A stretch of DNA of 56,358 nucleotides from NCBI GenBank assembly GCA_031259945.1, contig JAIRKU010000009.1, positions 1-56,358 of the forward strand, in the 5' to 3' direction. Shown here piece by piece: positions 1,310-27,380 of this stretch; within the stretch, counting starts at the first letter, position 1, and every line of letters begins with the position of its first letter. Under the pieces are notes generated by a model, which was not told where the DNA came from, made no database searches, and saw nothing but the letters and a program-made list of their open reading frames with translations. Both the position numbers and the translations under genes were made by a program. The DNA is from Mycoplasmataceae bacterium (GTDB lineage Bacteria; Bacillota_I; Bacilli_A; Mycoplasmatales; Mycoplasmoidaceae).

Positions 1310-2695
1310 ATGCAATCAAAGAAAAGTAATGCTATGAGAGTAGAAAAAGATTCTCTAGGAACAATGGAAATCCCAAGTAATAAATATTGGGGCTCACAAA
1401 CGCAAAGAAGTACAATTAATTTTCACATTGGCGAAGAAAGAGTTTCTTTAGATTTAATCTATGCTGTTGCTGCGGTTAAATGAGCGGCTGCCAGCGCAAA
1501 TGAAAAATGCCAAAAAATGGATAAGCAAAGGGCTAAACTGATACGTACTGTTTGTGAAGAGATATTGAATGGTAAGTTAGATACTAATTTTCCTACTTAT
1601 GCTTACCAGGCTGGTAGTGGCACACAAACTAACATGAATGTTAATGAAGTAATTGCTCATCGTGCCAATGAAATTGCTAAGAAGAATTTAATTCACCCTA
1701 ATGATCATTGTAATATGTCACAAAGCACTAATGACGTTTATCCAACAGCGATGAATATCACGGCTGTTAAATTGGTGACAGAAAAATTATTACCAGCAGT
1801 TGATGGGTTAATTAATTCTTGCCAGCAATTAGAAAAGCGCAATGCCAACGTTATTAAGATGGGGAGAACACACATTCAAGATGCTCTACCAATTACATTT
1901 GGTGAAGAAGTAAGCGGTTGGTCTTTTGCTTTACAAAATGCGAAGAAAATGATTATGCAATCACTTCAATTTATGTATCCTATTAACATGGGTGGTACGG
2001 CTGTAGGCACTGGATATAATGCACCTAAGGGATATGATAAGTATTGTGTTGATTTTTTAAATAAAATATTAAAAACTAACAAATACATCATGACACCAAA
2101 TAAATACCATGGAACATGAAGCAAAGATAATTTTGTCTATTTACATGGTGCAATTAAGGCATTAGCTACTAATATTTATAAAATTGCACAGGATGTGCGT
2201 TTTTTAGCTAGTGGACCACGTAGTGGTTTTGGTGAAATCACTATTCCAGCCAATGAACCCGGTAGTTCTATCATGCCAGGAAAAACTAATCCTACCCAAT
2301 GCGAAGGTATGGCGATGATTTGTGGACAGGTAATGGGACACGATACAACTATTGCTTTTCTTGCTAGTCAAGGTAATTTTGAACTAAACACCTTTGGAAC
2401 GGTATTAATGCAGAATTTTATTCAGTCAGTTACTTTATTCTCACAAATGATTAATTCTTTTAATAAAAATTGTGTGAGCGGTATTAGTGTCAATAGTGGG
2501 CGAATGACTGATTATGTTAATAATTCGTTAATGCTAGTTACGGCATTAGCTGATCGCATCGGCTATGAAAAGGCTGCTGAAATCGCTAAACATGCTTTAA
2601 AACGTAAAACCACACTTAAGGAAGCGGCATTAACTTTAAAGTATGTTACTATTACTGAATTTGATAAATATGTTAATCCTAAAAAAATGGTTTAA
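1310..2695 (+). CDS. fumC: Class II fumarate hydratase
   Basis: A 461-residue, full-length member of the fumarase/aspartase superfamily that interconverts fumarate and L-malate. Seen: WGSQTQRS near residue 28, the substrate loop [11 protein letters not shown] at about 103-113, [10 protein letters not shown] at about 185-194 with the active-site His, and the signature [11 protein letters not shown] at 318-328. The WGSQTQRS and THIQDALP forms match FumC better than aspartase. Start 1310 has GGCGGAG 6 nt upstream. No other TCA-cycle gene lies nearby, so it may handle fumarate released by adenylosuccinate lyase or feed malate metabolism (inference). Its stop overlaps the convergent ftsK-like stop by 4 nt. 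Confidence 0.92.
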
Positions 2696-26883: not shown

Positions 26884-26937
26884 ATTACCTTCATTATTCC
26901 ATCGGCGAACATTACCTTCATTATTCCATCGGCGAAC
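26884..26937. repeat. Perfect 27-bp tandem duplication upstream of yloU
   Basis: Two identical 27-bp units (26884-26910 and 26911-26937) lie directly upstream of the yloU promoter core, spanning where a -35 region would be. The second 27-bp perfect tandem duplication in this window; the two units are unrelated in sequence. Confidence 0.92.
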
Positions 26938-27028
26938 ACTTTTGAAGGCAAATGTTGGTTTAGTAAAGGTTAGAATAAGCAAATTAATGATTTTTTCTAT
27001 ATTACTTAATTAGAAAGGAGAAAAAATA

Positions 27029-27277
27029 ATGAGATTGATGAGCGAAAGTGAGAAAAAACAAATTAATGGTGGAATTGGGCCAATGATGTTATGAGTGATT
27101 ATCATGGGCGTTACGATGGGAATTAATACATTAGTTAATACAATCAAGACTTTTTCTGAAAGCGATGAACAAAGTAGTGGTCAAAAAAAGAACCAATATT
27201 CTGCTTCTAAGAGTAAAAGCGGTTATATACGAATGTCGGCGTTTCCTTCGCGTTCCAATATAATGATGCCATTATAA
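27029..27277 (+). CDS. Secreted peptide precursor with double-glycine leader
   Basis: An 82-residue precursor. Residues 1-15 match a class II bacteriocin/peptide-pheromone leader: hydrophobic and acidic positions, then ...EKKQING-G, with Gly14-Gly15 as the cleavage site for a C39-type peptidase/ABC exporter. The core (16-82) has a hydrophobic, glycine-containing helix (MMLWVIIMGVTMG), then a Ser/Lys-rich tail. Trp22 is TGA. AGAAAGGAG lies 8 nt upstream of the ATG, TATATT is at 26998-27003, and a strong terminator follows, so it is a monocistronic, well-translated unit. No exporter or immunity gene is adjacent. Antimicrobial or signalling function is inference. Confidence 0.72.
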
Positions 27278-27294
27278 AATAAAGCACATTTCTC

Positions 27295-27335
27295 AAAACG
27301 TCATTAAAATTAGTAATTTTAATGACGTTTTTCTT
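27295..27335 (+). terminator. Strong intrinsic terminator after the double-glycine peptide gene
   Basis: A 17-bp perfect inverted repeat (27295-27311 with 27315-27331, loop AGT) ends in a T-rich run. It is the clearest intrinsic terminator in the window, placed 18 nt after the peptide stop codon. Confidence 0.9.
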
Positions 27336-27380
27336 TGTTGGTTTGACAATAGATGTGTGAATTTACTATAATCAATTGCC

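Follow-up and report, generated by a model that had tools for sequence, protein, structure and literature searches.

The locus raises the question of whether a mycoplasma encodes a double-glycine leader peptide and, if so, which protein matures it and what the product does. In the 2019 eLife metabolic reconstruction of JCVI-syn3A, one passage notes that syn3A yielded no candidate for a double-glycine peptide and, citing Dirix 2004, that none was apparent in other mycoplasmas either; the same passage tentatively reassigns the C39 protein of syn3A (0401) to lipoyl-lysine import (PMC6609329). One table of another report attributes <1% of the retrieved bacteriocin-like proteins to Mollicutes (PMC7494827). 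A search of the open-licence literature yielded no report of a mycoplasma double-glycine peptide, and a passing mention could have been missed.

The peptide gene and its local signals

The window is the whole stretch of DNA analysed, 56,358 nucleotides of contig JAIRKU010000009.1 (assembly GCA_031259945.1). Its forward strand carries the following features.

27014–27020, + strand: Shine-Dalgarno sequence AAAGGAG, read directly from the sequence; spacing to the start codon, 8 nt.
27029–27277, + strand: precursor gene, 82 amino acids under genetic code 4, double-glycine type, relative of the MPN313 family.
27029–27073, + strand: 15-residue leader MRLMSESEKKQINGG, with C39 cleavage predicted after Gly15 (alignment A1, see below).
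27074–27274, + strand: predicted mature 67-residue peptide, with a hydrophobic helix, a Ser/Lys-rich linker and a conserved tail YIRMSAFPSRSNIMMPL.
27295–27331, + strand: intrinsic terminator, with a perfect 18-bp stem (27295–27312 and 27314–27331) and a 1-nt loop.

The original prediction described a stand-alone precursor gene with a double-glycine leader, a hydrophobic core, a Shine-Dalgarno sequence and its own -10. The open reading frame (ORF) is real under code 4. Its full length requires the TGA at codon 22 (27092–27094) to be read as Trp, and under code 11 the region yields only a 60-residue fragment with a GTG start. The leader is present at the N-terminus as described and recurs in homologues from many genomes; these homologues also share a conserved tail, which argues that the ORF is more than a chance reading. 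The segment following the leader is hydrophobic, with a maximum 19-residue Kyte-Doolittle mean of 1.74, from residue 18. The Shine-Dalgarno sequence was confirmed, and similar stretches lie upstream of most homologues. The promoter claim fared less well, because a sigma-70 scan of the + strand gave no match to both hexamers in the region immediately preceding 27029. The terminator hairpin is the sole terminator-like site within the 1.7 kb scanned.

The gene does stand alone. It is present in a single copy in the genome, and no recognisable immunity or partner gene adjoins it. On one side it is followed by trmK and then NIF3, and on the other lie an opposite-strand ORF without a Pfam match and a 563-residue ORF. 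At 26884–26937 of the window, upstream of the peptide gene, a 27-nt unit, ATTACCTTCATTATTCCATCGGCGAAC, is present in two perfect tandem copies where the opposite-strand ORF has its 5' end. Just past the terminator, at 27343–27372, a consensus TTGACA-N18-TATAAT (12/12) is located 9 nt before the GTG start codon of trmK.

Related peptides across the Mycoplasmatales

The best NCBIfam match of the 82-residue protein is NF045747 (MPN313), with a score of 25.8 bits (E 1e-5) against an equivalog cut-off of 100 bits. Judged by its sequence, the protein is related to the MPN313 family but diverged from it, and by the cut-off it is a non-member. When 320 Mycoplasmatales genomes were searched with NF045747, 49 of them had a match at E ≤ 0.01. 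The leader ends in xG in all 30 ORFs read behind these loci and in GG in 28 of them. An alignment of 29 peptide sequences (A1) shows Gly15 to be invariant (29/29), while Lys9, Gly14 and Pro73 are each conserved in at least 90%. Used as a profile, A1 matches 137 of the 320 genomes. Another 46 remote ORFs were read, and in every one there is a leader ending in xG and a core that is hydrophobic; 21 of them, from families f7 and f8, were used to build a second profile (A2), many members of which share a GExKTKD...KWDN tail. Profile A2 matches 262 genomes, mostly once per genome, and an A1 or A2 match is found in 272 of the 320. A further 20 ORFs were also read. The same leader pattern is present across three families of the order. 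Pfam provided nothing useful for the peptides.

The 105 leader ends comprise 82 GG, 15 AG, 3 VG, 3 SG, 1 CG and 1 PG, in a tally that was read by eye, is biased because the profiles include the leader, is ambiguous by one residue for G065, G025 and G033, and leaves out leaderless and broken-site cases, one copy cut by a contig end (G211) and non-members. As a control, A2 was run against 296 genomes of the class. At E ≤ 0.05 it matched 39 of the 256 genomes outside the order (best 3e-6), mostly through the leader only and to other short ORFs. None of the 256 had a match at E ≤ 1e-6 by hand count, so strong A2 matches are order-specific. The weak matches within the order may include other double-glycine peptides and so not all belong to one family; inspection of three of them (G003, G009 and G236) placed these outside the family.

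The genera g36 and g45 were considered as the M. mycoides group. This was rejected because the IIAglc proteins of G153 (g36) and G205 (g45) have clearly diverged from 2gpr (M. capricolum); M. mycoides itself lies outside the peptide survey. The genomes G208, of Williamsoniiplasma type, and G209 carry GTG-start peptide genes (L175 and L176) between rsmI-like and rplU-like genes, where annotation easily misses them. The homologue L028 of G224 (1426–1650, minus strand) is preceded by a good Shine-Dalgarno sequence, has no ATG, GTG or TTG at the leader start, where ATT or ATA may serve instead. In several genomes two different double-glycine peptides are encoded in tandem (L088, L089, L090, L091, L092, L107 and L344), which recalls two-peptide systems.

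At the level of these profiles, the peptides form an order-wide, mostly single-copy family whose members were previously unconnected. They were presumably overlooked owing to the code-4 reading, some GTG starts, their small size and their high divergence.

The C39 protein

The genome contains one C39 match, with a score of 73 bits (E 1e-20):

Contig C20, 1498–3360: C39-peptidase ABC protein L001, the single C39 gene of the genome.

The Gln, Cys, His and Asp positions of its peptidase motif are intact. The original prediction had named two findings that would count against it, the lack of a C39-type exporter in the genome and the lack of homologues with a conserved leader in related species; L001 and the family described above were found instead. 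The genome combines two of the elements by which a double-glycine substrate is recognised, namely a short precursor whose leader, in the range of about 14–20 residues, ends in GG before a core, and a C39 protein with its catalytic residues. The two genes are unlinked.

Across the order, the C39 domain (PF03412) was found in 283 of 320 genomes. The four catalytic positions match in nearly all readable C39 genes, with L042, L050, L051 and L055 missed by the motif pattern and the His not located in L321 and L331. The nearest NCBIfam model to L001, and the best of all models, is NF045998 (Mbov_0121), at 192.8 bits, under its cut-off of 500 bits. L001 gave no match to ABC_tran, and neither Walker A nor a signature motif is present in it. 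The protein therefore lacks the features of an ATP-hydrolysing exporter domain, and ATP-driven export by L001 alone is doubtful.

Loss of the Walker A and signature motifs also occurs in all four other genomes of genus g1 whose gene could be read over a sufficient length (L320–L323; the L319 gene is incomplete), in G227 (g5) and in the f8 genera g36, g40, g45 and g46, where the Pfam check among these non-g1 proteins covered G209 only. Motif-lacking proteins with the peptidase residues kept are L001, L320–L323, L324, L336, L337 and L137. Walker A is retained in G289, G285, g7, g8, g11 and Spiroplasma-type genomes. The P-loop of G286, G290 and G292 is a variant, xNASGKST, which is uncounted by the pattern and reads as intact. 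The motif loss appears to have arisen separately in this genus and in the f8 genera. Peptides and their cleavage sites persist in the ATPase-dead group. Cleavage, perhaps together with insertion of the hydrophobic peptide, may have been retained there, or another ABC protein may supply the ATPase.

Co-occurrence of peptide and C39 protein

A peptide match is present in 264 of the 283 C39-bearing genomes versus 8 of the 37 C39-less genomes at E ≤ 0.05, and in 222 of 283 versus 6 of 37 at E ≤ 1e-6. The Fisher tests on this co-occurrence ignore phylogeny and use match sets compiled by hand, in which G211–G213 (C-terminal-only matches) and G003 were scored as lacking an intact peptide and G165 and G169 (broken sites) within the 8 of 37. 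No peptide match was obtained for 19 of the 283 C39-bearing genomes. Six of the eight C39-less exceptions have an intact site and all six are drafts, 74–84% complete. In the other two, the Spiroplasma-type genomes G165 and G169 (99% complete), the site is broken.

Several close relatives serve as natural experiments. The peptide of C39-less G165 is identical to that of its C39-bearing sister G168 at 86 of 88 positions and has Gly15 replaced by Val (GG to GV). C39-less G169 differs from C39-bearing G166 at 7 of 78 positions, including Gly14 to Arg (GG to RG). Within their genus, g41, an intact xG site is found in 7/7 C39-bearing genomes and in 0/7 C39-less genomes. The C39 gene is absent from all three genomes of genus g2; in two of them (G212 and G213) the peptide core begins at an ATG preceded by a Shine-Dalgarno sequence, with no leader, and the G211 copy is interrupted by the contig end. 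These independent losses of the leader or its GG site constitute the strongest evidence in the sequences that the leader probably exists for the C39 protein.

Predicted processing and possible function of the mature peptide

The 82-residue peptide is, with high probability, a C39 substrate in its own species, with cleavage predicted, and its family is a candidate for the cargo so far missing for the C39 protein that almost all mycoplasmas keep. The precursor would be matured by L001: the leader would dock on the cytosolic C39 domain and be cut after Gly15, and the mature 67-residue peptide would be passed into or across the membrane. The hydrophobic helix would most likely keep the product at the membrane, its conserved polar tail facing outwards. 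Against substrate status speak the unlinked genes, the 19 C39-bearing genomes that gave no peptide match, the six C39-less genomes with an intact site and the Lys residues at -7 and -6 of the leader; well-studied double-glycine leaders have a hydrophobic residue at -7.

Alternatively, the gene could encode a small membrane protein with a single span, its GG serving only as a helix cap and having nothing to do with C39. The hydrophobic segment does start right after the GG, and the g2 homologues are leaderless. However, Gly occupies P1 in 105/105 read sites, the departures are confined to genomes that have lost the exporter, the peptide co-occurs with C39, and one leader pattern runs through three families of the order, all of which make this reading highly improbable. 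The peptide could also be a bacteriocin of class II (two-peptide, cerein/lactobin-like), exported to permeabilise the membranes of related mycoplasmas and kill them. The GG leader and the hydrophobic, Gly-containing helix are consistent with this, as are a weak match to TIGR03949 (class IIb, lactobin A/cerein 7B), one homologue with a TIGR01847 signal match of 16.4 against a cut-off of 15.7, and tandem peptide pairs in G230, G295, G282, G280, G302, G173 and G166. The TIGR03949 score, however, is 14.6 bits, below the cut-off of 21.5, and the window gene is a lone copy lacking an adjoining second peptide or immunity gene. The family is near-universal and mostly single-copy, its tails are conserved rather than diversified, and in g2 the core was kept after leader loss. 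On scores, context and distribution the bacteriocin was rejected as the main reading and is unlikely. The double-glycine leader peptide of the original prediction stands, with a C39 protein present and relatives sharing the leader; its possible bacteriocin is unsupported, and its other suggestion, a signal, gains some support from M. genitalium.

By analogy with streptococcal ComC-ComA-ComX, the peptide could instead be an exported pheromone feeding a recombination or DNA-transfer switch, which we regard as rather doubtful. The support comes from M. genitalium (G289), whose genome is a single contig of 580,076 bases; the peptide gene and an mraZ-mraW-MG223-ftsZ-like cluster (names from translations) point away from each other there. 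It was scanned with a presumed sigma-20 consensus of the TTGTCA/ATTAAT type. An exact TTGTCA-N19-ATTAAT lies 17 nt before the ATG of the C39 gene, as one of four exact sites in the genome, and TTGGCA-N18-ATTAAT (11/12; 3/500 shuffles) lies 16 nt before the ATG of the peptide gene. Against this, one-mismatch sites occur at chance level in the genome (32 vs 37 in the control; 37 vs 47 in the control). A general sigma-20 association was rejected, since, of the regions upstream of 10 peptide genes and 3 exporter genes, the two of M. genitalium alone reach at least 11/12: the nine other peptide regions reach at most 10/12 (G291; 47/500 shuffles), with the window gene at 8/12, and the two other exporter regions 8–9/12. 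The resemblance of the M. genitalium peptide and C39 promoters to the sigma-20 recombination type is suggestive only. The C39 match of this genome, at 493,130–493,516, agrees with MG_390, which one passage places near 493,411 (PMC5745988). In a review table, mg220 is named RrlA, a sigma accessory protein needed for sigma-20 activity (PMC9262362). However, that identification comes from this single table, RrlB is assigned to MPN534 in a passage elsewhere (PMC7737663), and no receptor is known for a pheromone.

Maturation by the C39 protein remains the preferred reading, and the membrane-held product most likely serves a housekeeping purpose, at the surface or in signalling, and not as an antibiotic; a housekeeping role at the surface is tentatively put forward as a serious possibility. 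A wider scenario, improbable in its entirety, would have the Mycoplasmatales inherit one core C39-matured peptide, which in Mycoplasmoides would have become an extracellular, ComC/ComX-like signal switching on sigma-20 recombination and DNA transfer, while in this genus and, separately, in Entomoplasma/Mesoplasma-type genera the exporter, its ATPase lost, would act as a membrane leader peptidase or insertase.

Implications and comparison with known systems

Mycoplasmas are the minimal-cell reference, and most of the 320 genomes keep a C39 protein whose cargo was hitherto missing. With a conserved candidate cargo at hand, what syn3A gene 0401 does becomes directly testable, and a hypothetical gene of M. 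genitalium gains a candidate role. The order also offers an evolutionary series, from a full exporter through an ATPase-dead peptidase to a leaderless peptide.

The closest known relatives, MPN313 and MG220 (NF045747), have the same layout as the window peptide, with leader, GG, hydrophobic segment, linker and tail. The tail is of the GLTPG type in the MPN313 family and of the SPxPsRS type in the window peptide, and the window gene precedes trmK whereas the MPN313-family copy of M. genitalium lies by mraZ. The NF045747 model entry annotates neither a function nor a leader. Among exporters, the Mbov_0121 family (NF045998) is the best match of L001, but the nucleotide-binding domain of L001 is degenerate. 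The double-glycine peptides of PCAT systems, namely class II bacteriocins and ComC-type pheromones, share the leader length, the Gly residues at P2 and P1 and the C39 enzyme. The mycoplasma family differs from them in being order-wide and mostly single-copy, in its unlinked genes, in the Lys residues at -7 and -6 and in its leaderless derivatives.
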